A stretch of 64,000 bases of DNA from contig OZ017753.1 in assembly GCA_963969365.1 (NCBI GenBank), positions 372,001 through 436,000 of the forward strand. Direction: 5' to 3'. The stretch's first letter is position 1. Each line of letters starts with the position of its first letter. Positions 3,948 to 59,200 of the stretch are shown here, in pieces. The notes under the pieces were generated by a model, which made no database searches, was not told where the DNA came from, and saw nothing but the letters and a program-made list of their open reading frames with translations. A program made the position numbers and the translations under genes. This stretch comes from Asterochloris sp. CNOR1 (taxonomy: Eukaryota; Chlorophyta; Trebouxiophyceae; Trebouxiales; Trebouxiaceae).

Positions 3948-6900
3948 TCACAGACCCTGAACAGAGTCTCCTCCCTTGCCACCTGGCTCATCGTGACCAA
4001 ATTCGACTCTACACATCTCCTCCTTTTGCTCTGCCGTCAGAACAAATGGCTGGAAGAAGTTCTGCTTCAGAGAATCTAGGGTGCACACATGGCCTGCACG
4101 CAGAGCCGCAGCGGACTCAGATGCATGCTGGCAGCCAGGATACACAACAGGGTACACAACAGCTCGCTCACCTGGCTGCATGTCAGGAAGGTCCACTTCT
4201 TTCTTGTTGAAGATGACTCTGACATAGTGTGTGTCGTGCTGCGGACTCTCCCACAGCTCCAGAACAACATTGCTGCACCACAGGGCATGGCATCAGGTCC
4301 CCACGTAGTGACCTACGCTCCTTGTGCGAGTGGATGTCAGTGCGACTGTGCTTGCCTGCCGGTGTACAAGTATTGCAGCAAAACCAGCTATAACAATGCA
4401 AGTACTAACCTGACATAGGGGGGCCATTGTGTCACATCCTGCTTCAGGGTCTGCAATAGCGGCATAATGGTCCTGCAGAGCAAAAATCTCAGCTGAAAGC
4501 AGCATGCAGCTGCAGCTTGGTCATGCACGCACACTCAGCCAACTGTCATCTGCCACGGCTACCTGTGACACGGCATGGCTGCAGCCTTGGGCAGGTGGTC
4601 TATCTGACATGCGCCACGAGTAGCTACAGCCCTTTTTGGAAACACTGCTGCTGCTAGAAGCTCAAAGCACTGCCCATGAAGTGCTATGAATCGAGCTGCA
4701 CTGCCAACCATATGAGGAGCAGGAGGCCAGCTACAGGTTACCCCTCCATTTGCTGCCAGGATTCAGCAGCACAGCAGCAACATGGAGCCTGGCGCAAATC
4801 GATGCTGCTTGATATTTTGGGCATGACACGGCAGGGGTGAGTGCCAACTGCAGCATGGCGCCTGGCACAGCCCCGCTGCTGCTACGTGAAAGCACACTAG
4901 GCACCAACATCTGGCAAAGCGTGCCCGCATTCCAGCAGGCAGCAGCATGGCATCTGGCGCGGCGCAGTTGCTGCCTTGTGCAGGCACCATTTGAGAGGGT
5001 CATGCAGGCACCCCGGACCCACGTGTCGTGGCCAGAGTAGAGCAGCATCCTGGGCTGAGCCTCGCCCTGCACGGTGGCATCCATGTGATCCACCAGCATG
5101 CTGAACAGACGCCCCATGCTCAGCTGCATCAGCTTCTGGGAGCCCTGCAGTCGAGGCAGGGCCAACCTTAGAAGGCCAACTTCCCGCAGCAGTGATGAGG
5201 CCTGCCCTGGTCAGCCGCATCAGCCTCTGGGATACCTGCACAGCAGGTTTGGCTTTTGAAAGCCCCAGCATAAGGGTGGGTGCAGGGCCAAAACTCAGCC
5301 ACATGAGGCTCTGGGAGCTCTGCACAGCAAGCACGGTTGGCCCCAGCCCAGTAGGCGAGGCCCACATCAAGGTCCATCAGATCCTGGGAGTCCTGCACAG
5401 CCGGCACAATCATGCTTGGCTTCCAGGACCCGCAGCAGTAGGCAGGACCAGGTTGACCTGTGGGAGCGCGGCCTGACAATGCGACTGGATTGCAGTACTG
5501 GTCGATGCCTGAGGCTGTGCACACTCGGCAGCCACTGAAATGGAGCCGCAGCCTGACAAGGCCACCTCATTGCAGTGCTGGTCAGCGTGCTGAGGCTGTG
5601 CATGTCCCAGCCACTGGAACGGAGCGGCCCTACCAGATATGACCGCCACCAGCAGCCAGCAGCGCGGGGCAACCTGCCATATCATTCATGCATGCCATGT
5701 CAGAATGATGGCTGCCCACACAAGGAGCAGGCAGTAATAGCTGGTGGGGCAGCCCACCTCAATATGTGCCTGAGGGGCTACAAGCGCGGTCATGCGCTTG
5801 GCAGCTTCCTGGTCAATGGTCAGCAGGAGGTCCTCGTCAAAACCCTCAGGGATGTGCTTGCCATGGGCAGCCAGCGTCGTCAGCGCGTCGTGCAGGTCCA
5901 CATACACGACAGGCTCTCCCTCTGGAATGTCCATGACCTTGCGCACTTGCGCGTCCACCTCCCTCAGGCGGGCATCCTCCCTGGCCTGCTCTGCAGCAAA
6001 ACTGCATCTGGTATCAGTGCCAATGGCCCATGCATGCTGGGCCTAGAGAAGGGCCTGGCAAGTGGGTGTTGGTGCCTGCATGCCCCATTCATGGGGACAG
6101 GCCAGGGCCAGTGACACAGGGAATTTGAGGCTTAGGCATTGTGAGGGGCTGACTGGTAAGGCCTGCTGCAGCACAGGAAGAGGCAGGGTTTGCTGAACCC
6201 TGCTGCAGCTTGATTCCCACAACCCCTGCTGCAGCTTGCCGTAGTGCCAGAACTGGGGAGCAGCGTGCTGCTGAGTTTGAACTTGCTCCTGCTGAGCTTT
6301 TAAACCACGCTGCTGCTGAGCTGCTGGCAGGCTCGACGTGGTCTCTATGTGCACCCCTGCTGATGCAATTTCTGGGGCAGTTCAGGGTGCTGGGCCTCAC
6401 AATCACTGCCACAACGCATGCATCCCCTGCTGGGCTGGCTGCAGAGCACGTCCCTTTTGCTGAACCCAGACGCTCTCACCTTGCACCTTCTTTTTGGCTG
6501 CATTCATGGCCAGCTTCAGCGACAGGCAGCCTTGCACGTTGGCAAAGAGGACCTCGTCCAGGTCGGCTGCGGTGGTGACAGGGATGGCCTCCAGCGTGTC
6601 AGGGTACAGCCCTGTCAGCACTCCCTGTAGAGTGCCTATCGTCCGCTGGAAGTTGGTGGTCCGCCCCGTCACAGCATCAGCCTGCCTGGCACAGCACGGC
6701 CGTGTGTCAGTGCAGGCAGACAGGTGCAAGGACAGCAATTGGGAATGACCATGCTGGCCAGAATTGCGACATCCAGCGTGAGCCTTCGTGGCATCCTCAG
6801 TGTCATGAACAGGGAGCACACAGTGGGCAACGCTTCCAACCACAAGCACTCCAACGCTGCACACACAAGTCAACACAAACCAGCTCTGCCCTCCAGCAGA

Positions 6901-8614: not shown

Positions 8615-10317
8615 CTGCAGAGGGGCTTGGCACAGCAAGTGGTGCCTGTGCAGGAGCCAGAGTGTGTGATTGTGCTGGGCACAGCCCACATCTCTACCCA
8701 GTCTGCCCAGGATGTGTACAGAGCCATCTGCCAGCTCCGGCCAGACAGCATCGTGGTGGAGCTGTGCGCCAGCCGCGCCGCCATCATGGCCGAAGAGCCT
8801 CGCTTCGAGCTGTCCCCTGGACCGTGCAGCCAGCCTCTGCTGCCTGCTGGGCAGGCGCAGGCTGCAGCAGAGGCGCAGCGTCAGCCCATGCAGCCAGGGA
8901 AGTCAGGCAACCTGTTCAGTCTCAGGTGATCTCTGGTGTTGGCTGCTTTGGCAGCAACGCAGGGTGGCCAGCCGGCTCCACTGCAAGCTGCAATGCCCTT
9001 GCACTGTCTACCCATCCTGCCCCCTTGCCTGGTAGAAAAGGAGTCGGCGCTTGCCTCAGAAGCCAGGTGCAGTGACCCTGCTCCCATGCTGCACTGCAGG
9101 GGCCGCTCGCTTCTTGAGGCTTTCCAGCAGACCCTGCAGCTGGGTGGGCAGTCAGCACTGATCCTGCGGCTGCTGCTCAGCGCTGCCTACAGCCGCCTGC
9201 AGCACCTGGGGCAGCCAGGGGGGGAGTTCATCGCTGCCCGCATTGCCGGCGAGGCAGTCGGCTGCGACAAGCTTGTGCTTGGTAGGTGGCTGGCTGCCCA
9301 GAACGCACAGTATACTCTGCTCTGGGGTGTCATCTAGAGGATGGATCCAGATTGAGCTGCTGCCCTAGTGCAACAGTCAGCAGCAGCTGCTGCAAGCCTG
9401 CTCAGCTGCAACTGTGACTGACCCAGCTCGGCATGAAGGCAAAGGCCAGCTTGGGGACAGTCTCCTTCAACAGACTTTGTAGCTGCAGCCGGCAGCGTCT
9501 AGGGCTGCTGCCCGTGATCCCCTCTAGACTGACCCCACCGCGGTCACAGCTCAATGTGTTTGCAGGGGATCGCCCTGTGGAGATCACGCTGGAGCGCACC
9601 TGGGCTGCCCTGAAGCTGTGGAAGCGGGCTGCCCTGGTGGTGGCTTGGCTGCCTCTCCTGGTCGTCCTGCCATGGCTAACACTGGACATCGAGGGCTCCA
9701 AAACGGAGGAGAGCCTGGAGGACATGCGCAAATTTGTGGAGAGAACGTGCCCTGAGGCACGCCACGCCTGATGTGCCGCCATTGTGCTTTGCTTTGGTCC
9801 TTTGCTGGAATGCTGCTGTCCACAGACCCTGTGATAACATGAACACCTGCTGCCTGTGCAGGCTGTACTGTTGGGAACAATGGACAGCTCGCAAGCGTGC
9901 TTTGCAGCCAGGCGGGACCTTCATGCCCTCATTGGCAGCCCGGTGTCCTGCAGGTGCTGGAGCCATTGCTGTGCGAGCGAGACCTTTGCCTCAAATGACA
10001 CTGGCTGTTGTGCTGCCCTGCAGGTGCTAGAGCCAATCCTGTACGAACGTGACCGCTACCTCACATGGGCACTGCAGCGTTCCAAGGCTGTGAATGGCAG
10101 CCGTCTGGTGGTGGGGGTGGTGGGCCTCATGCACCTCAGGGGCATCTCAGAGACACTCAGCCATTGGGAGAGCGCAGAGCCTCTGCGCTTCCGCGAAGTC
10201 GTGGGCAGCAGCAGGCGACGCAAGAAGAGAGGAGAGTTCGGCCCAGGCCGCCGCCTGCTTGCAGAGGCTGTAGTTGCTGGAGCTGCTTCTTGGGCATGGC
10301 TCTCTTGGCACCACTAA
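8615..10317 (+). CDS. TraB-domain (TRABD-like) protein
   Basis: TraB proteins are predicted metal-dependent membrane or organelle proteins; plant and animal members are linked to mitochondria, but their chemistry is not settled. Exon 8615?-8925 has the family opening VIVLGTAHISTQSAQDVYRA followed by DSIVVELCASR. Exon 9100-9281 reads GGQSALILRLLLSAAYSRL and then PGGEFIAARIAGEA. Exon 9566-9735 or so has GDRPVEITLERTWAALKLW, a hallmark of the family. The last exon, 10024-10317, has VLEPILYERDRYLTWAL and VVGVVGLMHLRGI and ends at TAA. The GTAH, ExC and GEF positions are present. No ATG is secure upstream of 8637, so the 5' end is open. The boundary of the third exon is uncertain, because the obvious donor leaves the wrong phase. 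Confidence 0.8.
9954..10078 (+). repeat. Duplicated acceptor plus exon start (TraB last exon)
   Basis: The real exon starts CTGCAG|GTGCTAGAGCC at 10024. A copy, CTGCAG|GTGCTGGAGCC, lies exactly 70 bases upstream at 9954. About 50 bases match at roughly three quarters identity by eye, from the acceptor into the codons for VLEPILYERD. The copy contains an in-frame stop soon after, so it cannot replace the exon. Confidence 0.85.
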
Positions 10318-11048: not shown

Positions 11049-14000
11049 CTTGACCTGCTCTGCAATGGCTGCAATGGCCTGCAGCAGGACGCGCTTCTTG
11101 CCCAACCTAAACCTGAGCGCCAGCTGCATTTCACTGGACAATGGCTGCCCATCGGTGCCCAGCCCTGTGGCCAGCTGGTGCTCGTCCTCTGAGGGCACAC
11201 TGGGAAACTGCCCCAGCACCAGCGTGCACACTGCTGCCAGCGTCCGTAGGGCCCTCAGCTGCAGGGCAGGCAGTGTTCTCTGAGTTGGCGGAAGGGCCGC
11301 TTCCGCACCAGCATGTCCAGCACCTGGAGAGAGAGCCTGCAGCTGCTATTCAGGCAGGCAAGTGATACGGGGTTATGGAGAGAGGCTGCCCCAGCAGCAG
11401 CCTGCGCACTGCTGCCAGCACCCTCATGGCCCACAGGTGCAGAGCAGACAATCTTATTTTGAAAAGCGCACTGCTGTCAGTGCCAGATGGGCATGCAGCT
11501 CTAGCTCAGACTGGCAGATGACGGGGCACTGGCAGTCATTGCCTGACACTGGGCGGCATCATCAGCTTACCAGCAAGGCCTGTATCGTGATCAGGTCCCC
11601 AGACGCTGTCCAGATAAACAAGCTGTGCAGCCCAGGCCACCCATGGAAGCACCAGCACCCTTTCTTTCCGCTGTGCGAACACAAGGCCCACTATGCAAAC
11701 ACCAGAGCATGCATGAGGCTGCTCAGCAGTGGAGTGCGCACCTCAACAGCAGCGCCCAGCACGGGGCTGCCCCAGGCGCCCAGCTTGCGCATGCTCAGCC
11801 CCTGCACGGACGCCGCCGTCTCAGCATACAGGGCTCGCGTGGCTGCCAGCAGCCTTGCATCCACAGGCTGTGCGCTGCCCCCAACTGCGACCTCCAGCTT
11901 CTCACGTGGGCCAGCCAGCTGGAGCTGCTCCAGAATTTGCCGCTGCCACGGGGCCAGCACTGGCAGGACATCTGCCCCAGCTGCTGTGGATGGGGAGCTG
12001 GCTGGCTGCGGACGACCTAGAGTGGAACCCTGGAGGTGGGCCATCTCTCGGCCTGCCTGCAGGTTCAGCAGGCAGAGCTTGCATTTGTTGAAACTTTGGT
12101 GAACCATGACCTGATATACCTCAACCATCGTATTCAAGATGCGAACCCTGGGGCGACCCAGAAACCGTATGTGAACTTGCCTTGGTGGGCTGTGACAGCG
12201 TGAGTCATTGCAACAAGCTTGAGACTTAGGGTGCCAACACAAATTTGCAGTCTTCAGAAGTGCACGCTACGCAACATCTTACAAAACGCAGGTACAGCTC
12301 TGGGAAGTGCTACGTGCACCCTCTTCACGTTTGCAACTCTCCATTGCCAATTTGTGCTGAAGGAGGCGACCCAGCAGCGCTGAATGCTGCAGGAAAAGGC
12401 AGAGGCGCTTTGCCCTGGAGGCAGCTCAGCTTTGCCGGACCCACAAGAACATACAGCTGCTGCAACAACAGGCTGAGCCCACCTCCAGCAGGCCCAGGTC
12501 AAAGCGCAGCTGCACTGTGTCATGGGGGTTGCCATCCACAAGGAAGCCATAGTCCAGCAGCAGGAAGTCGTTGCTCAGGTCCCCATAGCTCAGCAGCAGG
12601 GGCTGCCCCGCCGCCACTGGGTGCCGCGTCCGCATCTCGACCGTGCCAGATTGCACACGCCTGATCTCGCAGTTGGGCTGGAAGGAGTGGTTGCACAGGT
12701 CGATCAGGGGCAGCATGGCAGGTGGGTGCTGAGTTCCGCGGGTCCGAAAGGCGCGGCTGGTGACGACGCCTAGGCCCCAGCCTGCAGACGAGGGATGTTG
12801 TCAGCGAGCATGCAGCGGCGGCAGGCAGGTACTGATCATCGTGAGCACCTGCACAGGAGCCAGAAGAAAAGGTTGCATCAGGTCACTCAGGCAGAGGGGG
12901 TGTTATGTCCTGTGCCTGCAAAGATATGTTGGCCAGAACAGCCTGCAGGCTGGAAGGCCATCAGGCAACATGCGGCGGTAGGAGGCAGCCGCCGGGACGC
13001 TGCTGTTGGGCACTCTTGAGTAACAGCACAGGGCAGGGGTTGGCAGGACTGGTTGCAGGGATCAGATAGGAAGCGGGTGTATTGGACGCAAGGAAATGCA
13101 TGCCTGGTCACTACCTCTGGCCCCAGTATGCGGGTGGACAGAAGGCCAGTCAAATGCCGTGCTGGCAGGCGCTGCTGAGTTCCTGGAGGGCTGAATTGAA
13201 GAGGGGGCTGTCCTGCTAGTTCCTTTTCGCAATGCAGTCCCAGGAACAGCAGGGATGCCCAGAACAACATTGCAGCCCTCGGACTGCAAGCAATGCGAGC
13301 TAAGGCTGTAAGATCCAATCCACTGCTGTCAATGATCGCAGGTGGCTGCAGCAGAGAGCAGCCTGCCACACTCGCTGTACTGGGTTCCACCCGCCCCTCG
13401 AACAAGCAAACTTGCTCTCTGACTTTGCATTGCACAGTGCTGCAGCTGACCCAGTGCATTGGCATCCACCTGCTCCTGAGCCAGACACTCAGTGCAGGCT
13501 GCAGCTGTTGCTGTTGACTTTCACCTGTTTCTTGATGAACAATCACATTTGAGGTGTTGGCTGCAGCTCACCAAGCGCATTGGCATCCACCTGCCCCTTA
13601 AAGGGGTCCTCAGAAGTGCCTGCCAGCGGCTGCAGACTCTGCGCTGTGAACTGCAGCAGGAAGCGGCAGCGCCGCTGCACCTGGCTGGTCAGAGGGGGGT
13701 ACTGTAGGGCAGCCACGGCCTCGCGGGGAAAGAAGATGGGCAGGCCTTGGATGCCGACAGGGAGGTGGGTGATGTACGTCGAGAAGCGGCTGGCGGAGCC
13801 CCGCACCCTGTGCGCCAGGACCTGCAGGGCAGTGATGAGAGTCGGGGAGCTGCAGAGACCTGTGCAGCAGTTGAAGGGCAGGGATGAGAGTGGGGAGCTG
13901 CAGAGCCCCATACAGCGCTTGATGAAGGCTGGTAGCAGGCTGGGCCTGTTCCAGCAGGAACCTGATGAAGGCTGGTAGCAGGCTGGCGCAGACCCAATGA

Positions 14001-34000: not shown

Positions 34001-37000
34001 CTTGTCCAACAGCAGCAAGCTGCAGAATGCTTCCGAGCTGCCTGCTGCTGCAGTCATGCTGGTCGGGCCTTTCTGTGCACATCTCTGCCTGAGGCTGCAT
34101 CATTCTGCATGCTCTGATCTAGCCTGAAACCGGGAGCAACAGCAGGCCTGCTGCCATGGCAAGAGGTGCATGTGACAGCGGGCAAACATTATTTAGGCAG
34201 CCACCTGACGACTGCTGGCTGTGTAGGTCAGGGGCGAGGGCGAGTGGCCTCGCCTGAAGTTTGACATGAGGGAGTGCATCCTGCCACCGGTGCCAGTGGG
34301 CATCAGGGCAGAAGCACAGTTCTTCGTCATCAATGATGGTTATGACAACCTGGAGCTTAAGGTGAGCTTGTTTCCTTTTGCTAGCCTCATGGCAATCTCA
34401 GCTTGTTGGTACTGAAGCTATATGCATTGCAGCAAGCTGATGCCCTCAGCAGCAGGGGACCAGGGCAGCAGCTTGGGTGCTCACCTGCGCCACCAGCTGC
34501 ATGCCGAACATTGCAGATCCCCAGTGCTGGCCTTTTGGCATTGCCCTTCTTTTGCTGTGATCCTGCTTGGCAGCTCGCTGGAGCCTTAAAGCACCTTCAT
34601 GCTGCACATCAGCCCTGGACGGCTTGCAGGGCCGGCACAGTGCATTTTGCTGGTGGAAACTGCATGCCTGCCTCTAGACCAACGCAAAGCCTGCGCCTTC
34701 TTTCCATGCAGACCAGGCTGCCGGCTGATGAGCACCACCTCCCCCTGACCCTGGCCTTTCCCGAGGGCACCCTGATTGGGATAGCCAAGGAGCGCCTGCT
34801 CGTCTTAGTGGCCTGCACGGCCACCAGACCCACCAGCTTTACAGCCAACGTAGACTTCCTGGACGATGATGGCAAGCGCTACAGCCTGCCAGTTACAGGC
34901 ACCACCGACGCCTCGCTGCTCAGCATCAAGCCTTTTCTGGACGTGAGACCTTGCTGCAGCTGCTGATGGCATTTTGCAGATGTGGCTTGTAGCCAGAGAG
35001 GCCATGTGAGCATCTGATAAGTCTGCCTACGCAGAGCAAGCTTTGTGGTCCTAGCTTGTGTTCTTTTTGAGCACATCAGCCTTGCTGTGCAAAAGGCAGT
35101 TGTTTTGGCTGTCAGCCTTGCTATATTGTGTTTTCCCACATGCTGTGTGCATCACTGTCCAACGGCTGCACACAGCAAGGTCACCTGTCTTTGAAGCGTT
35201 GCAAAGTGGGGCAGTGCTGCCTGCAGGTCAATGCCGGTGAGCTACTGTGGCGCACCACAGACGCCTCTGCCGTGCTTCTGGACGAGTCGGTTCCCTACAC
35301 GCTGCCAGAGGCTGGCATGGACTCTATTGGGGCCACAGTTCCACCACTGGCTGTCAGCAAGTTCCTGGTGGCTGTGGCAGCCAAGGGGCCCTACCAGAGC
35401 ATTCCAAGCGAGATGGTGGCCTCAAAGGGCCGCCTCATGCTGGAGCTGGTGGAGCTCTTCTCGGGCAAGGCCGTGCCCAACAGGGTGTGTGCTCAACCAA
35501 GTGCCAGCCCTGCCTGCTGCTTACCTTGTGCAAAGAGGGCAACAACTAATTCCCCCATGCTGGAGCTGGTGGACCATCGTTATGGGCAAGGCTGTGCCCA
35601 ACGTGGGCCCTCATAGCAAATGGTCTGCTTTACAGAGTCCTTTGTGGGGCGACGCTGTGCTCCGCAGTGTGAGCAGGTGATGCAGAGCCACTCCGGCTGT
35701 TCGAAGAGACACATGCTGGAGTTGGCAGAGCCGTCCCTGGGGAAGGCTGACCCAGCGGAGTGAGCAGTTGTGGGACTGCTGACCTGAACTACATGCCTCT
35801 CTAGTGACATGCATGCCCACCCACACGGCTCCTGCTAGACTGGTGGAGCTGCCCTTGGGCAACAGGGCTGTGCCTAGCAGGCTTTTGTGGGCATAGGCAG
35901 TACAGTGCTGCATGATGCACAGAGGCCGGCTTAAAACTTACAATGGCTTATGCACAACAATGTGCCGAGAGAACAGTCTGTCTGAGGGCGCACAGCTTGC
36001 GTCTGCAGGAAATAATCTCAATGTGTCGGCACGCAACCAGCACGGTATGGGGCTATAATCTGTATCCCAGGGAAGCACATCTGCCCCACATCCTCTTGCA
36101 TTTGGCATGCTGACGGCCGACAGGACAGAGGCAGGCCTTTCAGGAGCTCATCTCTGGCAAGCCTGGCAAGCTCCTGCAGGCAAACAACTCGTCACCCAGC
36201 CGGTGGGTTGCCATCTATACAGGAGCCCACTTCCTGACATGCTTGGCATGTCTGTGCAGGTAGGCAGCTTGGCGGCCAACAAGAAGGAGGTGGCCCAGCT
36301 GCTGGTGGGGCAGTATGATGCCCTCCTGAGCTTCCTCAAGTCCCACGGCGCCCTGCTGAACGCAGTCAAGCCAGAGCTACTGCTGGACATTGAGGAGTTC
36401 AGGTCTGGCCTGACAGCAGGCTCTGGGCACCAGTCACACACCAAAGGCCTGCCAGGGATGACTTGGTGTGCAGTCACCCAACTGTACACACAGCATGTGC
36501 TCAGAGCAGCAGCCAGCCTGTAGCACTTGCGGGCAGCAGCATCAACCCTTGCTTCTGGCAGATTGCCGTGCAGCCATGATCGGGGCTCGCTGAGACCTGC
36601 CAGCCTCTGGTCAGCCTCTGTGAGGACCAGTGCAGTACATTCTCAACCTTTTTAGATTTACATTGCTTGCATGTAGACAGATTGTTTCACAGCCTTGATA
36701 GGGCCTCTGGACTGAGGCCAGCAATGTGAAGCCTTATGTGGCACCTCTGCATGTCAGTTCCCAAAGTGTTACAGTGGGCGAGGGCTTTGCTGTGGACAGA
36801 TGTTGTTGCTGCATGTGTTGCAGGACCATCCTGGCAAAGAAGGACGCCAAGGTGGTGACTGAGGCCGATGCAGAGGAGATGGAGTTCTGGTACCAGCTTG
36901 AGGACGACTATGAGATCATCTCATTCAAGGCTTGGAACGCAGTCATGTCTCAGGTGCAGCCCCTGACTCTTGCGAGGCAGTACTGCATTACCTGACTCTA

Positions 37001-40000
37001 CATGGAAAGCACCTCTGCGCAGCAAGCGCATGAGCCGTGCACACTTGTGAGGGCTGAACATCAAATTGTGCTGCAATGCAGCGTTGCTGTCATGTTGTAG
37101 GTGCAGATGAGGTCCTACTTGGAGTGCACTGCGTGCACTGAAATATGCTATGTGCTCACTCTACATGGCCCTCCGCAAGTCGATAGCTTTGGCCTGTAGG
37201 CCTGAGCTGCAGCGGGTGTAAGATCACTTGGCGCCCGCGCCACCGCCACAGCGCATGGAAAGCTGCATCAAGGGCATAGTCATAGTCACAGAATTCATTG
37301 AAAAGTGGCTGCCTGGCTGCAGCCTTGCTCAATAGATAACCTAATCACCCTGCAGGGCTGAGCTGATGATGCCCCTGCAGATGCTGAAGATCTTCGTGCT
37401 GGCCAGGGTGACTCCCAAGTCCTTCAAAGCTCTGCCAGGACTGGAGGGCTGCCAGCTGCCGCCTGACAGCACATTGCTGGGCAGCAATGTTTACAGTACA
37501 GCAGAGTCTGTGCTGCTGGCATGGCTGACGGTACACCTCTCCAAGGTGAGCAGGCAGTTGCTTCAAGTCTTATGAAGTCTGGCTGCACCAGCCTGCTGCT
37601 CTTTTTGCCTGCGTCCAGACATCACCACAAGCCCAGCAGCACAACTGGCTTACAATACCCCTGCTCACTGCCTGCCATCAGCCATTCTGCTGACTCATAG
37701 CTTCTGTCCATCATCCTGGCATTCAGCAATGCTGGTCTGCCACCCTGCCCATGGCTGCCAGGCAGGTTCCACAATGTCTTTGATGCCAATCAGCCCTGAA
37801 GGCTGGCCCTGTATGCTTCTCTGCCATCCTGCAGGTGCTGCCCATGGCTGCCAGGCGGATCCAGAACTTTGATGCTGACCTGCGCAGCGGGCTGGCCCTG
37901 TATGCTGTGCTGGTGAGCCACTGGCCGGAGCTGGCGCGCCTGGGGCCCAAGCTGAAGACAGCTCCAGCCGATGAGGGGCACTTGCGAGACAATGCCACCA
38001 TTGTGGTCAAGCTGGTGGAGACACTGCAGCTACCCTACAGCCTGCAGGTCAGACTGAGCAGCTGTACTGCATGCATAGCAGCTCCACTCTTCATACCAAA
38101 GCGCAAGACGCAAGACCAGTCGGGCGGGGGCTGCCTATGCTTTGGGTCCTGCAGGTGGTGCACGTATGGCTTGCTGCACAGGAAGCTTGGTTGAGGTCCT
38201 GATGGCAGTCACCGAATATATCTGTGACCATCTCATCTCGCTATGGCCGGTCCAGTTCTGAGCGCCCTCAGGTTGGGTTCAGTCCAAGATGTGTGTGGGT
38301 ACCTGCTTAGCTGCATCCTGCGCCATCTGGCAGACATCCTGGATATTGCGAGGGTGTTTCTGCAGGTGGACGACATCCTGAAGCCCAATGCGCTGGACAT
38401 GCTGCTCTTTGTGCTCTATCTCTACCAGGCACTGCCTCAGCTGGTGCCGCGTGCCACAGTGGAGTTCATGGGCAGGCTGCAGGAGAAGCAGGTAAGCATG
38501 ATCCTGAGCCAGCTTCCACACAGATGTCAGAAGGTCAGAGTTCACCGCTCCCTGCAGCATAGTTAGGCATTAGGCATCCTGGGTACAGAAGCTGCTGCAG
38601 GACTTTCTGCAGTTGCTCAGGTGCCCCTGAACACGGCATGCAGCAGGCTCTGCATGAAGGACAGATTTGCTGAGCCCTTGATATCCACCTCCTTTTTCTT
38701 GGCTCAGTTGTGAAGCACGTTCTGTACCTGCCCCATCTGCTGGCCGCCAGCTTTTGAGGCAGGTCATCAGCAATCCAGCTCTCAATTTGCCTGCTGTGTC
38801 CTGCATGTGGCTCTCACCTCTGTGTGCCTTAGCAGACCCAGGGGGCTTGCATGTAGGTACATGTTTGTGAGGTCAATGGCCAGCATACTGCCTGCACTGC
38901 TCGTTTTGTGTGCTTCAACTCTCTGTCCGTTTGCTCACTGATGGGGGCATACTTTCTGGTGAAGCTGATTGACATCAGCGACGCAGCCCAGCAAGCCACT
39001 TGCATTGGCCTGTATGTGTCCCACTCTCTCTGCACCAACGGGGCTACATACAGGCCAAGCTCAGTGCAGTCAGCAACTCAGCCAGCAAGCTGCCTGCCTC
39101 CCTCGCCTTGCATGTGTCCCTTGCATTTCATTGCCTTGCTGCACTGACAGGCTCTGCATGCAGGTCAAGCATATTGAGGTCAGCAACCCCACTAGATAAA
39201 TTCTGTCGCTGCCCTGCAATCCATGCTGCAAGTCCCCATTCTGTTTGCAATGCCCCACCCATTTGTGACTCCACCAGGCTTCCATGCGGGTCAACTTGAC
39301 GCAGATCAGCAACCAGCCAGCTGCCTCACCTCAGAGTGCATGCTGCTTACGCATCAGCTTTGCATACAGGTGAAATACATCGAGGTCAGCAACCCAGCCA
39401 GCAAGCCAATTGCCTACACTGCCCGGTTGGAGGGGCACTCAGACTTTGCACTGGAGGCGCCCACCATCAGGATCGAGCCCAAGGGGTCTACCCGCATTGC
39501 AGTGCTGTGCAAGTCCAGCACCACTAACCCTCAGGTGCATGCGGGGGATTTGCAGTGGTGCTGCAGCTTGCCTCGATGATTTCTGGGGGGCCCAGGTGAT
39601 GCATAAAGGTTGTCGGTACTAATTGAAAGGGTCCGGCAGGGATTGCAGCTGGCCAGCTGCAATCTGCCTGGCAAAGCCTGCTGTTGGTCAGAGCTTCTAA
39701 GAGCCAGATGGAGTTGGGCTCCAGTGACCAGACAGCAGTTTGCAATGCTTTTAATGGGTATGTGGAACAGCCTCTGTCTGCTGCAGACCTCCAAGCTCAT
39801 TCTGACCAGCAAGCGAGATGGCAGTGCCCTAGCAGCTACCATGGTGTTTGCCCTCAGAGCTGAGGTGGACGCCAGGGGGCCTCTGAAACGATTCAAGGCA
39901 GATGCCCAGTTGTATGAGTTCAAGGAGTTTGAGGTCAAGCTGACCAACCCCTTCCAGGTGAAGCCTGCAGAGCTCGAAATTGCCTGGCAGCATTGGCTAG

Positions 40001-43000: not shown

Positions 43001-46000
43001 ACCCAGGCTCAGGTGGCTGCTGCAGCCCACCTGTGGCAGACAACTAGCCATGCTGTCCTGTAATTTTGGCTCCTGCGGTGGTGGCAGGCCTGCCGCTGCT
43101 GCACGCTGCGTTTTGAGTGCAGACCTGTGCTGCGCTGCACCACGTCACAACCGGCCTGCACGTCTGGTGCCTGCAGATCCCCATAGTGAACCCTGGCGCT
43201 GCCTCTCTCACAGTCACTGCAGACTGCCGTGGGGAGGCCTTCAGTGGTCCGCGCACCTTTGAGGTGCCGCCGGGCATGACCCTGGGTTACCCACTCACCT
43301 TCTCTGCCCCTTGGATCGGGGAATATGCTGGCGCGCTGGAGATGAGCTTTGCTGCCACAGGTGGGGTGCCTGCAAGTTGCACCAATGACAGGGTTTCCTG
43401 CCTGCCTGCCTGTCACAGGCAGAGGTGCTGCCACAGGTACGGCAAAGGATGCTGCCGCTTGGCTTGCAAGCATACTTTTACAGGAAGGTGCTACATGCTG
43501 TGTGGGCTTGCCGAAGATGAGCCTGCTGCCGCCCGGGGGAGTTGCTGCCTGCCACAGGGCGTCATCAGCTACAAGGCTCCTGCCACAGGGGTGCCTCATT
43601 GCCTTGGGTGGTGACACTGTCGTGGGTGGTGGCGTCACAGACTTGCCACTTGGCCTCGGGCACACAATAAGTGCAACTAGCCTGTTTCGTTCCCCTGCAG
43701 GCGAGAAGAACACCTATGCCCTGCTGGGCAAGGCGACTGACCCTGTGGCAGAGGGCCACATTGTGCTGGACTGCCAGGCGCGCACCCACCAGGGCAAGCG
43801 TGTGGCCGTGCCCAACGTGGTGCCCAAGAAGGCAGCTGAGTACAGGTATGCTGTGGTACCCTGTGCGAATTGCTGGGGGTGCAGCCCCGAGGCTTTTGTG
43901 TCTCAGGCTCGAAGAAGAATGGGGCAGCAGATACTGTGTCTTGCACAGGTGGGGTGTTTTGCAATCCTCTAAGGCCCAGCCCAGGCGCTGCCTTGCCTTC
44001 TGGGGTGTCAGTGCTCGCAGAAGAGAGGGCACGCCCCATGCACCAGAGGCTGCATGGGAGCACTGACGCTCCCAAAGAGGGAGCACACCCTGTGCAGCCC
44101 CTGCCAGTGGAAAGCCGCCTGCAGGCTGCGCTTCAAAGGAACCAATGCTGCATCCTGACCATGTCTCTCTTCCTCTGCAGGATCTTCAGCGACCTGGACT
44201 GTGTGGGGGGCAAGGACTCTGTGACCGTGCAGCCTGGTCAGACAGGGACGTACACGCTGCATGTTGTGGCGCCGCGGCCAGGGATGATCCAGGGGAGCGT
44301 GACATTCATGGCAGAGTCAGGTGAGTAGGGCCGGGACTGCAATGCATTTGGTCCAACAAGGTGGTTCAGGCAGAATGGGTCATGGCAGAGAGATTTGCTG
44401 AAGCATCTAGCGACCATGCATGAGCAGTGCAGGTCAGTGTGGAGGTCAGAGCTGCCAGCAGGGCCACATCTGTGGCGCTCTCTCTCACAGCAAGCTCTGA
44501 CAGCTATCATGCATGCAAAGTTACAAGGCCTCGTCCACACCTTTTATGAGCTGAGCAGCCAAAGTGCGCAGCTAGGAGGATCACTTTCTGCTGGCCGGAT
44601 GCAGCACCCCGGGCTAGCTGGTGGCCCACCCCATCAGTGCACGGACTGTCTCAGCAACATAGTCGCAACTTCCTGGCCTCAGCGCCAAGCAGGGAGGGCC
44701 CCAGCTCACTCCAACTTCCCTGCCGCTGCAGGGCACTACATCTGGTACTACCTGACCCTGAACGTGACAGAGGCGCCGCCCATCGCAACCATTGACGTCT
44801 CCGCTGCCGTGCGCAAGGCCGTCGCGGTGCAGCTGGACATCAGCAACCCCCTGAACGAGCCTGCCAGCTTCAGTGTTGCCTACGGCAGCAATATGCTGGT
44901 CGGCCCACGGCATGTGGCCCTCGCGCCGCTGCAGTCCATGCACTTTGAACTGTTCTATGCACCGCTGCTGCCAGGGGACAGCGAGGCAGAGCTCGTCTTC
45001 TCCAGCATCAAGGTGTGCTGGGCTTACAGGCTGCAGGTGGTTCCAGTCCCTGACGCTGCAGAGGCAGGAGGAGACCATGTTTGCTGGCTTGCTTGTGGCT
45101 TGCAGTTGTAGCTGCTCTTTGTGCCCCTGCTGCCTGCTGACGGCAAGGCAGAGCTTGTTCTCTCCAGCATCAAGTTAGGCACGGTGTGTTGATGTGGCTA
45201 GGGGACCTGCCTTTTATGAGCTTCCTCACACCCTACTGACTCAGGAGCCTAGCATGGCAGATCCAGCACCCTGTTGTGCAAGCATGCCGCTGCCCTGTGG
45301 CTGCCTGTACCGTCTGCAGCTAACCTGGACCAGGCACCTGTAATCTTTGACTGCCCTGTTTGCCAGGCAGCGGTTGAGAAAGTACATGACGCCCTATTTG
45401 CAGCATCTGAGTGCTTGCAGCAGCAAGCATGCCTGCCTGAACCTGGGAGCTCTCTCTGTCCCAACCACCTTGGCCAGTTACTACTGTCACTGGGCTTGCA
45501 AATCTGGTAGGCCTGCCTGTTGTGGAGCATCACCATCAGACGTCTTGTGTGACCTGCCCTGCGCACGCCTACACATCTACCATGCCTGCTGCAGCTGGGC
45601 AACTTCTCATACATCATCAAGATGCACGCCGACGATGCGCCCGCGGAGGTACTGCCTGAGCAGTCCGCACAGCTGGGCTGCACCGCACGGCAGACTGTCG
45701 AGATCCAGAACCCCACAGAGGACGACGCAGTCCTGGAGGTCTCCAGCAGCAACCCTCACAACTTCATTGTGGGGTCGCCGGCCCTCATGCTGGGCCCTTA
45801 CGGGGTGGGGCACCTCACGATTGAATATCTCCCAAGCTCCCTCAGTGAGTGGTACCCTGGCTATGTACGTTGGCCAGAGACGGGGCGACTGAGGGTTTCT
45901 TGTCAGAGCCTTGAGATGGGACCAGGCACCTCACCATGCCGAGCTCCCTGATTGAGTGAAGCCCTGGCTGCGTGACCTGGCTGCGATCCAAACTAATGCC

Positions 46001-49000
46001 TCCATACGGCACCCTGGGCAATGTCATGTCACAGCATGATGCTAGGCTTCTTCACAGGTCACACCACGATTCACTCCCTCCCCAGCTCCCTCAGAGGGAG
46101 ATCCCCTAACTGGTGTGATCTGGCTGTGGCCTGCATGGGGTCTGCCAGTCCCCTGGGTTTAGCTCTGTTCTTCATGAATTCAGAAGGCCATCCTTGTCCT
46201 GGCCCTGACCGGCGGCAGTGGGGCCGGCAACAACCCAGGTATTGGCTGTGGAGGCTGTGAGAGCTGATCTGCCTGGTGCTGAGCGGCCCTGGCATGACCT
46301 TGACCTCTGAGTGCCCCCAGGCATTCCCTGCAGGCACAGTGGAGCAGGGCACCGTCACCCTGCAGAGCGCCGCGTTGGGGACGTGGGAGTATGCCTGCAG
46401 CGGGACTGGGCGGCGTCCAGACGTGATGGAGCCCACCGTGCTGACGGCCATTCTGGGGCAGGATGGCAGCTCCTTTGTGACCTGGCGGAACCCTTTTGCG
46501 GAGCCTGCAAGGGTGAGCATGTGACTGGGGGCTTGTTGAAGGTGGTGACCAGCCGAGCTGGGTCTGTGCACCGGAGTGCAACTCCCCCTGTCCTGACGGC
46601 TTTTGCTTTTCTCCTTGTTGAGGTGGGAACCGTCTGCGCTCTTGACCTGGGTTTTGGTTGACAGCCAGCAGGAACAAGATGGCTAAGGGTCGCCTGCAGA
46701 TTGATCTGCCAGGAGGGGTGCTATGCGTGTGCTGATTGAAGCTGTTGGAGCAGCACGGCATTGTATGCTGTGCGCATATATCGCCAGCAGAGGCCGCCTG
46801 CACTGCCCTCAACAGCCTTCGAGCCCCCAACTGTCTCCAGACTTCTTGGGGCAGACAACGTCTGCGGCTTGCAGGGTGGCCACAGAGCACTGCCCTGCTT
46901 TCTGTGCAGGTGGACGTGTCCCTCAGCAATGCTGGGGATGAGCAGGCTGCTGCAGCTGCAGCAGCCCTGGAGGACAGAGGAGGGGCAGGGGCGGCCTCTG
47001 CTGCTGAGGAAGTGCCCGCCAACCGATTTGACATGGTCATGAAGAAGACTCGGGGCATCAGCGTGGTGCCTTATGGGCTCCTTCAGGTGACTGCCCATGT
47101 CAGGTGCATGTTGGCATCAGGCGCACAGCCGGACCTGGTCCAAGCGTTATGGTGCAAGGCAGAAGGGGCTTCCGCAATTAGTTTCACAGCCGAGTACGGC
47201 ACAGGGTCCTGCATGTGTACATGCAGAGAGTGTGCATGTCACCTGCGTGCAGCTTAACAAGCTCAATGCGCAGAGCTGCTCCTCGGTGCTTGCCGCACAA
47301 TGCTGCTGCCTCTGCAGGTCCCCATCACCGCTGCGGCGGTGTGCCTGCCAGGCCCTGGCAGGTCTTGTGTATACATCTGCGCTCGACAGTGTTGGAGCTC
47401 TGCATGGTCCCCTGACTATAATTCGGCCCTGGCTGCAGATCCCCATCACCTTTGCTGCGGTGTGCCTGGAGGTGCATCATGGGGAGGTGCAGGTGACCAT
47501 GGAGGCGCCGCTGGATGCAGAGGCATTGGTCTGGCGCTTCCCCTTGCAGGTATCGCAGGTTGCAGGGTTGTGTGGGGGCTTTGGGGCAGCTTATAGTGTC
47601 ATCAGAGTGTGTGTGGGGCTTCCCCTGACGGTGTGGCAGGCTGCTGTGTAGCCTTGAGGCGGGTCTGGAAGTCAAACTTGCCTGGGCTGCTCTCAAGGAG
47701 GTCTGGGATGCGCTCCTGCAGTTGTGACTGGGTGTTTTGTTGCCTTCCCGCACGGATGCACGTCAAGCTTGAGGCTTCAAAGGCAGGTGTGGGGGTTGGC
47801 ATCTGCAAATGAGGCAGGATGGCAGCCCCATAAGCTGCCTGAGCAGTTCCAAAGTGGGCGCAATGTGAAGCTGACTGGGGTTGAGTGGTGTGCCTGATGA
47901 CTGAGTTGCTGGCAGAAGGACGTGCTGGATGACACGTGTGGGGAGGTTATGGGTGCCTCATGCTTGCTTGGTGTGCTGCAACAACGCGTTTACTGGCCAA
48001 GCTGCACACAACCTGTCGTGCTCTCTGCACCTGCATTCCTGACACGCAGTGTACACTGAGTCGCCAGACTCCCTGCCCCTTCCGTGCAGGGCATGTCTGA
48101 GGCTGAGACCTCCCACGAGGTGTACCGCTTCACCTGCCAGGCGCGCTCCAAGCTGGAGGATCACCTCGACCTGCGCCTTGAAGGGCTGGGGCGCCTCAGC
48201 GGCACAGAGGTGTTCTCACACGAGCTCCTCATCCCCCCCAGCAAGCAGTCGGCCCTGGGGCATGCTCTGCAGCTGACGCTGGTGCCCGGCTGCCTCAAAC
48301 AGCCGGGGGACCCTTTGAGGTGGGACAGGGGTGGAGTGTGGTCTCTCAGCAGAGCAGCTGACAAGGAACAGGCATGGTCCTGTGGAGGCAGGGTGTGGCA
48401 GTCAGTGACCTCCTCAGCTTCAGACCCAACATGGCTGCGTTCCACAACACTGTATGCAGCTCTCTTCACTGCCCAGTACCTCCAGGAGCACAGCCTCCTC
48501 AGCCCTGCAGCGCAAATCGGCACCCAGCTGCAGCCCTGCAGCCATTGCTCCAGCAACAGTTCAGCAGTTCCTGTGCAGCCCTGTCTAGCGCAGCTTGCCA
48601 CGCAGCCTGCCTGGCTTGCCAGACATGCGGTTGGCTGCCAGGTGTTGTGCACAAGAGCGGCTTTGTGAGCCCTTGACTGTCCTGGTGTCCCAACCCTGCA
48701 AGGGCATGCAGACCCTTGTTTTGCTGAGAGCCACTGAGGCCTGACGCCCTGACTGTGCAGGTGCAGGGTTCCCTGTTGCTGCAGAGCCCTGCTGCCCTAG
48801 CCCAGCAGGTGCAAGCTGACTTCCGTAGCAAGGCTGCTGCCTGCACCCTGCAGGTACCAGTTGACCTTTGCCCCTCAGAAGACGGTGAAGGCCAACGTGG
48901 GCCTGGTGGTCCAGAAGAGCACAGGCGGGCGCTGGCGCTTTGAGCTCAAGCTGGAGGCCACCCAGCCTGAGATGGACGGCAGCATCATCATTGAGGCTGC

Positions 49001-49836: not shown

Positions 49837-52031
49837 TCATTCCTGAATGGTGTCAAGGATGTCCTGCATGCCACCCTGCATGCGCTCTGCAACTGCACCA
49901 GTCTCGCCAGTGCGCCTGCAAGGAGACAAAGTCTCATCGTAGTGTACAGGCAGCAGCGCAATGGTCTCTTGGCACATGCACTGACTGCCACTCCAGGTGC
50001 GGCATCAGTGTGACAGGGGCACTCACACTCGTACGACATCGGCTACAGGGACAATGAAAATCTTGCCATCACCGATCTCTCCTGTGTGAGCAGCCTGGCT
50101 GACTGTTCTAACAACAGTGTTGACCTGCGTCCTGCAGATGGCACCGATGCATCTGTCAGCCATACGGCCTGGCTGTGTCAAACACAACAGCTATTGCGCA
50201 TGTGCAGCTGGGCTGCCCTGTCATCCTCGGAACCCAGTTCGTCACGCCAAGCAGCCATCACCTGAACACCTGCAGGGCAGGGCGGGCAGCCTCATCAGCA
50301 GGGCGAGAGAGAGAGGGCTGCTTGCTCAGCATGCAGCTTGCATTGCATGCAGATCTTGAGCAGCAGGAGGGAAGCAGGCCAGGCAGCCACGCGTTTTGCT
50401 GCATGCGCTGGTGCAGGCACCATTGCATGCCTCACACAGGCTGCCAAACCAATCTTGCTCTTCAGCAGTGGCCGTGAAACAGCCAGCTGGCGCTAACTTG
50501 TGGGCCACTTCAGCAAGCAGGCAGAGAACCAGCAGGTCATGCAAAAGCCCACCACGATGTCCAGCTTGGCCTTCTCCACCAGGTTGTCCACCCCATACTC
50601 TGTCCCCTTGTACCGTTCCCGCTTGCCTGCATGGCACCGTGCATGCAGCTGTCATGCAGTGTGGTTGCACCCTGCAGCTGCCTGACAGCCGCTGCTGCTC
50701 TTGCTTGCATGCATGGGCGCAGCATGTGATAATGCCAGACAGAGGATTGCGTCAGCAGAGAAGCGCCCTCGTGACCAGCTGTGACACTCCCACTTGCTAA
50801 CAGCTGCCAGGGAAGCACCTGTCCTGCAGGCTGTTCAGACCCTGTAGCTGTCTGGCAGCCTGTACTGCACAGGTGGACACCAAAGCTGCTGAAAGCCTGC
50901 TGGGACTCCTTGAGATGGCTTTGAGGTCTCCTTGCAGCACAGAGCCGGCTGGAGGATGCATGCGCCTCTCCAGCACGGTATAGAGACATGAGGAGCTGCC
51001 CACAAGTACACCCAACCATCTCACAACTTGCCTCCCTGCACTCCAGCACCGCGAACACGTGTGGCTGTCAGGCCATAGATGCCCACTTTGCTGAGCTCCG
51101 CCACAACATGGCTCAACCTCCAAGGGCGCACGATAGCCTGCACAGCCGGGGTGGCGGCAGCTTCATTCCTGTCAGGCAGGGTTGTGTCTGCGCTGCACGA
51201 GCAGCTGCAAGTGCCCTCAGCCCAAAGGGGCGCCACTTGGCTCAATGGTCCCCACTGCACATTGACCTGCACACCCAGGACAGCATAGCCTCTGTTCTTG
51301 GCTTGACAACGCGCAGCACAGGTCCTTCTGGCACCATGCCATCTGTCTTTTCACTCGGCTGGCCAAGAAGCCTGAGGTTTCCCTGAAGTTGCAGCCACCA
51401 GCATTGCATTGCAGGCAGCAAGTGTGCTGCCGCTGCACAAGCAGCTTTGGGTGACTCAGTCTTATGCTGCGGCTGTCGATGACGAGTTCGTTGTGCCTGC
51501 CAAGGGCTCCCTGCGCTTTGAGCTGTGCTGCTGCTTGCAGCTGGCACTGCACTGTTCCTGACAGCACTCTGTTGGACTTTGCTGCCGCTGAGAGTGGTGT
51601 TTGGCCCACCTCAACACGGAAGAACTCGCAGTCAGGGAACTTGCTCAGGTCACAGTGCAGGCGCTCCAGGAGCTTGTAGGGGGCAGCAGCTTGGGCAACA
51701 CCATTGTCATCTGCACACGCAGGGCCAGCATGGTGCAAGCCTCTTCGATCAGCAGTGTAATCCTGTTCAATGCAGATAAACATCAGGCCAGCTGTGTGCA
51801 GCTCAAATCCAGCTACGCATCCACCTGAGGCTCTAACTCTGCATGCCAAGTGGCGTGTAGTCCTTGGAGCTGCAATTCTTGCAGGTAGCTGTACAGGCTG
51901 GCTGTGGCATTTCTGGACCCTACATCAATGCCAGACCAGGTGAGCACATTGGCAGGGGCAAAACCTTGACACCGAAATGCTTGCCGTAGATGGAGTCCAG
52001 GAAGCTGCCTGCCAACGATGGTGCCCTGCAT
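49837..52031 (-). CDS. GLB1: Plastid PII nitrogen/carbon signalling protein (GlnB family)
   Basis: PII trimers sense ATP/ADP and 2-oxoglutarate and, in green plants, control N-acetylglutamate kinase in the plastid. Exons on the minus strand are about 52031-51935 (transit peptide, [19 protein letters not shown]), 51710-51610 ([13 protein letters not shown]), 51137-51032 ([20 protein letters not shown]), about 50630-50555 ([20 protein letters not shown], the T-loop), about 50131-50027 ([17 protein letters not shown], the B-loop PII signature) and 49915-49837 ([20 protein letters not shown], ending in TGA). The C-terminus has the plant-type extension that forms the glutamine-binding Q-loop in many algae and plants. 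One intron needs a GC donor at 51031-51030. The junction between the T-loop and B-loop exons and the first-exon donor are uncertain. It converges on CFAP47, with 162 bases between the stops. Confidence 0.87.
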
Positions 52032-53155: not shown

Positions 53156-53159
53156 AATC

Positions 53160-56283: not shown

Positions 56284-59200
56284 TTAGCTTATCTTACCAG
56301 CCTGCTTTGACAGATCAAATTCAAAGCTGGCCTCTGCTTCTGCAGCAGCTACGTCCTTTTCAAGCAGATTGACTTCACCATGAAGCAGGTATGGCTTCAC
56401 CCAGAGGACCGCGCTGCACACTGCCAGCACCATTGCATACTGAGGAGGGATCTTGTCAGAAGAGGCCACAACAGACCTGGCTGTCATGCTCAGCCTATGT
56501 TGTACATGCCCAGCCGGCTTGACAGGGCCCTGGTTGCAGCACTCCTCTGGCTGATCGTCAAGATCTGCAAGAGCAGGAAAAGTAACTTCTGGAGTGTTTT
56601 ATATTGGCCTAGGTTTGGCAGGGAGGCAACTCTGAGGTGTGCCCACACGTGCCTGGGGGCGTGCCTGGGCGCTACAGGCCAAACAACATCTGAAGTGCTC
56701 ATGCTTGCCTGGGGGCTGCAGCAGCTCTAAATCCAGCCTGTCCTCTGCAATGGCCCTCAGCAGGCGCTCACAGTCTGCTAGCTCCTCACTGACTGCTGCC
56801 CCCACAAAGGCCTGCTCTGACAGGTACGTCAGGTACTGGTTCAGCTCAGGGCCAGCCAAATTTGTGGCCTGCACAGCAGCGCCATCAGTGGTATAGCTAA
56901 GGCAGTCTCAGGGCTTGATCCCAGTGATCATGACTGGTGCTGACAGGCTTCAAGCCACACCTGCGGCTTGGACCACAATTGTCTGCTCTAAGACACTCAG
57001 TGCAACTGGGCCACATAGTGGGGCCAGATAACGCCAGTCAGCTTCCCCAGTAGCCCACCACACAAGGCGCAGATCTAGATTTCCTAAGCAGAAGGAGACG
57101 TGCTGAGTGCAGTACAAACGATGCCTTGCCACACTGACCTCCTCAGTACTGCGGGGCCACACAGTGGGGCCAGACAGCCGCCGCAACGCCTGGCGCGCCC
57201 ACTTCTGCCAGTCAGGTGCCGGAGGCAGCCCCTCCACTGGGGGCCGTCCTTGTCCATCAAGCCCATACATCACCTGCAGGGCCCAAAAGGGGCATAATGC
57301 TGCGTGGCTTGAGGACCGTCATGCTGCTTGGCTTAAGCTGCAAGCCTTGAGTGGGGAGGGTGCGCATCCTTTAACCGCACACATCATCTGTACAGCTTAG
57401 ATCAACGTGAGGAAGTGCTGCAGATCAAAGCCTCTGGTAGATTTGCTTACTCAGCCACAGATGTCCTGCAGCACGGCTGCCAGCCTGCCCTAGACTCCCC
57501 AAGCTGATCTGGCCTTGAAAAGGGCCTCACACCCAAATGCAGGCACAGGCCACGGCGGCTGGTTGTGATGCAAAAGTCACCTTTAGGGTGACAAGCAGGA
57601 CAGCCACGGCCTGGGAATGTGGGGTGGCAGCCATGCGCCGCTGCAGGCGCATGGGCGGTGTCCCAGCACGATGGAGCTCGTGCAGCTTCAGGGCGGCAGG
57701 GAGCAGGCCCTGCACCACAAGAAGGAGATGTCCTGCTGGGTGGCTGCACATGCAGCCTCAGTGCTGCATGCAACACGCGCTCAGGGTTGCAGAAGGCTGC
57801 TGCAAACCTGTGCAAATGATTAGGCAGCTGACATCTGGCCTGCAGGATGCTGCACTTGTCATGGCTGTGGCTGGGCGCCAGGCACTTAGCTCTGGGCAGG
57901 TTCAGGACTCAAGAAAGAATCTCAGCAGCGGCATGAGCCTGATGCAGCAGGGCGCAAGGAGCCGCCTGAAGCGGTCCAGTGGCAGCCCTGCCCAGCCAGC
58001 GCATATTCAGCTCAACAACAAAGGTCTGTGCGACAGTGTGCTTCAGGGCGCTGCCTAAGGCGCAGCACAACAGCCCAACCCACCTGAGGCATGCCCAGCT
58101 CAGCGATGAAGCGCTGCAGCACCAGCGGCGCGTTGAGCGGTGGGAGCTGCATGCCCATGGTGACCGCCATCTCGACGCCTTCCTGGGCAATGTGCAGGGC
58201 TGAGGGGAGGCCTGCAGGCCAGCCACTGCGTGGGAGCAGGCCGATGCCAGCTGCTGCACAGGCTACATGCTCAAGACTGAGGGCACGCCTGCAAACAGCT
58301 GTCTGGCTGTTATGAGCTGTGACATAGAGTCCACTGTGCCCACAACCATACAAAGCTCTGGCTCAGTATTGTGTGGTTGCTGAACAGCAGGGGCATCCTG
58401 CAGCACAGCTGCCCCTGAGCACTGCACTTAGCTCTTCAATGTTACTGAGGGCAAGGCTGCAGACTCATATTGCGCTCAAGGGCTGCACAGTAAGCGGGCG
58501 TGACATCACGTGCAGACTGAAAGGTAAGCTGCACCTGTGACTGATCTGTCACTCGAGGGCACACAGTGCATGGCTCTGAACAAGCCAGTGACAGCAACTG
58601 CATTCCACCTTGCAAGTTGGCTGCAGTCACTGCCATACTGCACCCGCAACAGCTGTACAGCACGGCATCCATCGGGGCCAGCAAGCAGTGAATTGCCTGC
58701 CTTCTCATGCAGGTACCATCAGCTGAGGGCATTGCCATGCACGCTGCGCACTGCCCTGGACACACACAGGCACCGACCTGCCAGGGGGTTACCTGCCTCC
58801 TAGAGCGGGTGCCCTCAGTGCTGCAGCAGCTCTTTGGGACAGGTACTGTTCATGAAAGATGATGCTCTCCGCCTCACATCATCATGCTCACCGCCGTGGC
58901 CATGCATCGGCGCCAGCAAGGTGGCTGCCAGGGGACTGCCTGCTGCCTCCACCAGGTGCCGGCAGCGCTGAGGCATGTCCAGGTAGGGGAGGGCCCCATG
59001 CAGTGCCGCAGTCAGAAGGTCTGAGGCCATCAGGGCTTCGCGGCTCAGCCAGCAGACCAGGAAGCAGATGGACAGGAGCGTGCTGACCGGGAGCACCTGA
59101 AGGTGGCAGGCAGCTCAGCACATGTGCATGGGAGACTTCACCCATGGGCCCTGCCCTCTGATGCAGCATCCTGCTCTGCCGCTGGCAAACCACAGGCCGG

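Follow-up and report, generated by a model that had tools for sequence, protein, structure and literature searches.

The origin of intron sequence has long been a subject of inquiry. In a 64,000-nucleotide stretch of the green alga Asterochloris sp. CNOR1 (GCA_963969365.1, contig OZ017753.1, here C8, positions 372001-436000; hereafter the window), introns of several genes hold decayed copies of the edge of the adjacent exon. Such copies are datable traces. A preliminary description of the window explained them by tandem duplication across exon-intron junctions, one copy being kept by splicing and the spare becoming intron. To judge from a 304-kb sample of six contigs, comprising the window, four 50-kb blocks and a held-out 40-kb block of contig C12 (genome 56.4 Mb, 21 contigs), this process is supported, but most repeat pairs appear to be unrelated to junctions. 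The reading favoured here, with a probability of roughly 0.78, is that local tandem duplication acted at random positions, mostly long ago, that its products were filtered by selection, and that the events crossing junctions lengthened introns.

Direct repeat pairs were collected with a gapped detector at scores of at least 80 or at least 100 and spacings of 40-350 bp. Exons and introns were modelled by a small gene finder trained on the window and the four blocks and then run on the C12 block, giving 496 training and 77 held-out introns; the self-trained models have TGCAG as acceptor and AG|GTGAG as donor. These signals, like the presence of FAP47/CFAP47 and of a TraB gene with homologs in green algae and plants, are consistent with a green alga. 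The main counts (exon-edge matches, placement classes, copy decay and unit coverage) use the later gene models. An earlier set, with a faulty codon table in its start model, underlies the intron-flank tests, the 6-nt similarity profile, the table of spacing against intron length, the codon control on chance matches, the splice consensus and the exon/intron CpG ratios. The DNA has about 58% GC and a CpG observed/expected ratio of 0.37. In the window, CpG (0.37) and TA (0.42) are strongly depleted and CTGCAG is in excess; CpG is less depleted in predicted exons (0.47) than in introns (0.32).

Exon edges were compared with their own introns, the expectation being taken from length-matched introns of other contigs. 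In the training set, 32 of 476 exon starts (50 nt) matched the upstream intron with a score of at least 80, where 0.6 were expected, and 26 of 482 exon ends matched the downstream intron (0.65 expected). Wrong-side controls gave 3 of 405 for exon starts against the next intron (0.55 expected) and 7 of 405 for exon ends against the previous one (1.2 expected). In the held-out C12 block the own-intron side yielded 6 of 76 starts (0.45 expected) and 2 of 76 ends (0.2 expected), and the wrong side 0 of 67 starts (0.0 expected) and 1 of 67 ends (0.05 expected). This own-side excess, with few wrong-side matches, indicates that copies lie mostly where a junction-crossing duplication would leave them. 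Altogether 60 of 573 introns, about a tenth, carry an exon-edge copy scoring at least 80; matches scoring 50-60 are mostly due to chance.

The copies reported in the preliminary description are thus present where it placed them, far above chance, and its view that they are a habit of the genome, shared by unrelated genes on both strands, is borne out by their occurrence in all six contigs sampled. Among the genes that it named, pairs were found in the ACP6-like, TraB, SET, CFAP47 and TAF1B genes, but the edges in a gene at 17.8-21.9 kb, where gene models are weak, were not confirmed, nor was PFC1 identified; the sole attempt made at identifying PFC1, a Pfam search with the open frame at 60136-60657, gave no match. 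The proposal that duplication lengthened introns agrees with the greater median length of copy-bearing introns (about 410 versus 226 nt), although longer introns also offer more room for copies.

Which of the repeated edges is the real one was settled by homologs at two junctions. In a prolyl endopeptidase gene of the C2 block (36143-44834), the gene finder added 13 residues absent from the best match in the Protein Data Bank (PDB), 1e5t, a structure from pig. A false exon at 39690-39728, exactly 13 residues long, belongs to a series of acceptor copies that precede the true exon at 39956, with spacings of 88, 204, 265 and 389 in alignments and perhaps another at 319, seen by eye. In CFAP47, identified by Pfam and by FAP47 of PDB 7n6g, the FAP47 sequence aligns through LLQ|IPITFAAVCL at the 47439 junction without extra residues when the copy is omitted by hand. 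The prolyl endopeptidase structures without the 13 residues and FAP47 without extra residues therefore fix the real exon at both junctions. The surroundings of the former (C2 block 39540-40050; L009, L010) hold four to five acceptor-edge copies at irregular spacing, and the copy at about 39750-39839, which retains 88% identity and an open frame across the part that matches, is possibly usable as an alternative exon.

The copies and their exons have diverged unequally across codon positions. For 77 exon-edge copies the mismatch was 0.199, 0.218 and 0.305 at first, second and third positions, respectively, an excess at the third with a bootstrap 95% confidence interval of 0.063-0.129; chance matches lacked such a bias. 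Frameshifting gaps were found in 24 of the 77 copies and stops in 9, as anticipated by the claim that their coding part decays, and 27 of 30 gaps in copies were not multiples of three. Combined, the third-position bias and the frameshifts indicate that the exon has been constrained at the protein level since duplication and that the copies, as a set, have not. Most copies (60 of 77) extend to within 8 nt of the junction. In 21 of 34 acceptor copies an AG occurs no more than 3 nt from the projected site (chance 41%), and in 10 there is a TGCAG (chance 5%); GT is present in 18 of 26 donor copies (chance 30%) and the common donor 5-mer in 9 (chance 3%). Retention of the splice motif in most copies, as had been proposed, accordingly holds for the bare AG and GT but not for the full motifs. 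Splice scores no lower than those of the weakest tenth of real sites occur in 8 of the 34 copies at acceptors and in 5 of the 26 at donors.

Exon-edge copies are part of a larger population of local direct repeats. The preliminary description had left to be checked whether local matches exceed controls and whether a dispersed repeat might account for them. At a score of at least 100 the sample contained 185 direct pairs, with none in shuffles and none at 4 kb distance, and at a score of at least 80 there were 297, where shuffles gave 6 and distances of 4.0-4.3 kb gave 8; 55 and 31 pairs, at the lower and the higher threshold, came from the window alone. Ungapped repeats in the window were some 30-40 times denser at 60-150 bp than at 3-12 kb, and the same local excess appeared in the four 50-kb blocks, from other contigs, and was missing from shuffles. 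A 50-kb stretch of E. coli, serving only as a control of the method, gave 8 and 3 pairs. In 264 kb, searched with one threshold for both orientations, direct pairs outnumbered inverted ones by 275 to 16. When 155 units, each represented by a single copy (at least 40 columns, score at least 100), were compared with the rest of the 304 kb, no match turned up, so that no dispersed family was found within the sample. Recognisable units, merged, span about 7-10% of it (20-29 of 304 kb). One three-copy array in the window (26569-27046, spacing about 220) was classed as non-coding, and one of its units overlaps a predicted exon at 26450-26607.

The placement of pairs relative to genes was roughly random. 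Pairs lying wholly in non-coding DNA numbered 139, against 151 expected by random placement; intergenic DNA (52 kb) contained 27 of them and introns (168 kb) the other 112. The closeness of the total to expectation indicates that many events ignored junctions. Exon/non-coding pairs were 27% more frequent than expected (131 versus 103; binomial p about 0.001) and exon-exon pairs 37% less frequent (27 versus 43; p about 0.008), both probabilities treating pairs as independent. Exon/non-coding pairs should be in surplus if constraint on one copy keeps a pair recognisable for longer, and exon-exon pairs in short supply if selection acts against duplication inside exons. Among pairs scoring at least 100 at spacings of 60-350, the whole period was aligned, or the remainder carried extra homology, in most of the non-coding class (60 of 76) and in 9 of 14 exon-exon pairs.

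Most copies appear to be old. Of 106 non-coding pairs only 2, members of a single array, had an identity of at least 85%, as did 3 of 84 exon/non-coding pairs and none of 12 exon-exon pairs, whereas a simulated steady process left 205 of 607 detectable pairs (at least 40 columns) at this level. The array in question, C12:500545-500748 (L021 545-748), has a period of 68 and about three copies of 93-96% identity, and is the only local non-coding array in the sample with at least 85% identity over at least 40 columns. Proteins of close relatives deposited in ENA/NCBI (P0053, P0055, P0056, P0061-P0063), one of them on a 3.1-Mb contig, were also informative. As called, they read through introns, which makes intron sequence available in translation. 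At TraB, the copy aligns without gaps up to the junction in P0053, P0055 and P0056, which stand at 94-96% over the matched stretch; the exon part is identical at 36-37 of 37 residues, and the read-through intron part at 24 of 27, 24 of 43 and 27 of 43. The CFAP47 copy at 47312 can be made out in P0061 and, read in a different frame, in P0063, and P0062 begins inside it. Dating by relatives, as the preliminary description had suggested, thus places both duplications before the splits from these relatives; it covers two loci, and for other copies the claim of age rests on divergence. Together with the 2 young pairs among 106, it makes the process look largely past and not ongoing.

These observations can be accommodated by a simple sequence of events. 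Stretches of about 40-250 bp would have been duplicated in tandem repeatedly, at more or less random positions and mostly long ago, probably through replication slippage or flap mis-processing, both of which produce tandem duplications. Those internal to exons would have been thinned by selection, and those in intronic or intergenic DNA would have persisted, both copies diverging. Duplications across a junction would be tolerated because the exon-adjacent splice site still yields the old protein: splicing presumably keeps the exon-proximal copy, and the spare edge, with its splice site, would become intron and decay neutrally under an exon that stays constrained. Since one copy is constrained, exon-edge pairs would remain recognisable longest. 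A bolder version, which we put forward tentatively and consider somewhat less likely than not to hold, is that the duplications stem from an ancestral pulse (a mutator, a period of defective replication or weak selection) that lengthened introns by exon-edge copies and has since nearly stopped, leaving fossils datable by codon position and by relatives; its oldest units would have faded beyond recognition.

Several results weigh against random duplication with later filtering, and some of them would speak for duplication targeted to junctions, through CTGCAG microhomology or an RNA-linked process, which would preferentially copy edges together with some 6 nt of the splice site. Mean similarity reaches background level some 6 nt inside the intron. 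The whole period is aligned in only 37 of 77 exon/non-coding pairs, compared with 66-96% in simulated tandem duplications, and for 8 of 37 edge copies the intron-side flanks beat all 30 controls, compared with 38-83% in simulations, depending on age and indel rate. The surplus of exon/non-coding pairs over random placement, perhaps a matter of better detection, perhaps reflects some preference for junctions, and the arrays of several acceptor copies at irregular spacing would also suit targeting. On the other hand, the 6-nt boundary probably coincides with the end of constraint on the real site, those 37 pairs do hold the whole period, and pairs in non-coding DNA alone occur near their random expectation; targeting is therefore regarded as unlikely. 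Nested later events and the greater age of exon-anchored pairs may account for the low flank homology and the low share of whole periods. Further points to be set against random duplication are that inverted copies do exist (six strong inverted pairs within 160 bp), that the gene models were self-trained from DNA alone, and that the duplication load, measured in this genome alone among eukaryotes, cannot be called unusual.

That the copies are functional, as alternative exons or as decoy splice sites under selection, would fit the minority with splice scores in the range of real sites and the TGCAG kept in all four members of the ACP6-like array. It is nevertheless improbable, given the frameshifts and stops noted above, differences of about 20% at first and second codon positions, and relatives in which 36-37 of 37 exon residues are identical but the read-through intron part with the copy retains from 17 of 54 to 24 of 27; single copies may differ. 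Chance similarity can draw on the composition of the genome, which is rich in TGCAG and CAG and poor in CpG, with CTGCAG and related words abundant, and it does explain most matches scoring 50-60. Yet few strong matches come from introns of other contigs matched for length, from dinucleotide shuffles or from pairs 4 kb apart, and composition explains neither the codon-position effect nor the side-specificity, leaving chance a negligible likelihood at scores of at least 80. Introner elements are families of similar introns spread over many genes. Insertion of such elements, or of transposon pieces, into introns is equally implausible, every copy resembling its own exon and no unit recurring in the 304 kb searched of the 56.4-Mb genome. 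Three further candidates were considered. Templated insertion by end joining uses nearby templates in both orientations, which does not agree with the 16 inverted pairs against 275 direct ones. Error-prone copying at birth is disfavoured as the main cause of divergence by the larger difference at third positions, which implies that divergence needed time under selection, although a small share may have arisen in this way. Birth of new introns by duplication of whole units was rejected on the finding that spacing falls within 10% of intron length for 1 of 42 copies of acceptor edges and none of 31 copies of donor edges; this inequality indicates that existing introns grew.

Duplication as a process, and single cases crossing a junction, are already known (PMC4974935, PMC3443670, PMC2374710 and PMC3188502). 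For RdRp of potato, Ma, Lan and Niu (2016, PMC4974935) describe a tandem duplication across an intron-exon boundary, with a unit that, as in the alga, joins the 3' part of an intron to the 5' part of the next exon and includes the splice site, together with an 83-bp intronic tandem duplication; there one young locus gained an intron, whereas the alga has many loci, old copies and longer introns. The model of intron gain in which a single duplicated exonic unit supplies the entire new intron likewise involves local tandem duplication and duplicated splice signals, but spacing should then equal intron length, unlike here. For flies and primates, tandem duplication is given as the main source of inserted sequence (PMC2374710), in the form of short insertions inferred from alignments, as opposed to spacings of 40-250 bp and old copies in the alga. 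Old local duplications leave sequence similarity in fly regulatory DNA, with no evidence of frequent ones in yeast, according to PMC3188502, which concerns regulatory sites and a range up to about 50 bp and not exon edges. Sliding or tandem duplication has been associated with novel intron positions in Drosophila (31 near-intron pairs in PMC2891723); altered intron structure is tied to tandem duplication there too, but new positions arise, in contrast to the alga's copies at existing introns. A genome-wide exon-edge pattern was not recognised in titles and abstract openings of the literature, algal or general, most subscription journals lying outside that coverage. What may be new is how many exon-edge fossils can be dated and how few of the copies are young.

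Because protein constraint anchors one side, a single genome suffices to learn how old the copies are, how fast they decay and what becomes of spare splice sites. Should young copies prove scarce throughout the genome, a change of duplication rate within one lineage would be indicated. The copies also mislead gene finders, as with the prolyl endopeptidase copy called as an exon and probably also in CFAP47, and annotations of such genomes may consequently carry false short exons. The features identified in the window are listed in Table 1.

Table 1. Exon edges and their copies in the window (positions within the window)
Feature	Position	Strand	Basis
ACP6-like, acceptor and exon start, taken as real edge (exon 4898-5144)	5114..5149	-	printed junction
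ACP6-like, three acceptor/exon-start copies, spacings 91, 84, 73	5205..5397	-	repeat alignments, printed junction
TraB, decayed copy of acceptor and exon start, stop after 14 codons	9944..9997	+	80% over 54 nt, spacing 70
TraB, real acceptor and exon start	10014..10067	+	Pfam TraB on hand-joined exons
SET gene, pair 11208-11277/11386-11455, spacing 178	11208..11455	-	80% over 70 nt
SET gene, pair 13439-13477/13560-13598, spacing 121, both predicted exon	13439..13598	-	90% over 39 nt
CFAP47, two acceptor-edge copies upstream of edge, junction 30604	30385..30650	+	repeat alignments
CFAP47, donor-edge pair, donor after 31756, copy at +325/326	31690..32091	+	repeat alignments
CFAP47, donor-edge pair 35433-35481/35553-35602, donor after 35484, copy at +120/121	35433..35602	+	repeat alignments
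CFAP47, acceptor-edge copy 37745-37817 of 37838-37906, edge at 37835, spacing 93, copy's splice site broken	37745..37906	+	alignment
CFAP47, donor-edge pair 44939-45012/45101-45174, copy without GT at matching place	44939..45174	+	alignment
CFAP47, donor-edge pair, donor after 45844, copy at +249	45808..46107	+	repeat alignments
CFAP47, acceptor-edge copy, 89%, CTGCAG kept	47312..47347	+	alignment, relatives
CFAP47, real acceptor and exon start	47433..47468	+	FAP47 alignment with copy omitted by hand
P-II-like gene, donor-edge pair, spacing 170/171	50617..50868	-	repeat alignments, Pfam P-II
TAF1B/Rrn7, donor-edge pair 56996-57028/57142-57174, spacing 146	56996..57174	-	Pfam Rrn7_cyclin_C

The hand-joined TraB exons matched 58 proteins, including the window's own open frame, with homologs in green algae and plants; a PDB search with TraB gave no match. 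The SET gene was identified by a Pfam SET match on a piece of the predicted protein. In the P-II-like nitrogen regulator (50258-52237, minus strand), 69 predicted residues match 44 profile positions, and the model may hold a false exon. CFAP47/FAP47, of the flagellar central apparatus, is a long gene at about 36107-49674, perhaps starting from 21790, with clear homology at 36-38.5 and 47-49 kb. There the gene finder predicted an exon at 45112-45183, overlapping a donor-edge copy, and another at 47318-47338, inside the acceptor-edge copy. Similarly, in the ACP6-like gene, whose predicted protein is a histidine phosphatase by Pfam His_Phos_2, an exon was predicted at 5366-5392, inside the copies. 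The first exon bases in this array are 5144, taken as real, 5235, 5319 and 5392, each preceded by TGCAG, and the three spare copies share, by eye, GCTGTGCAG ahead of the exon start.

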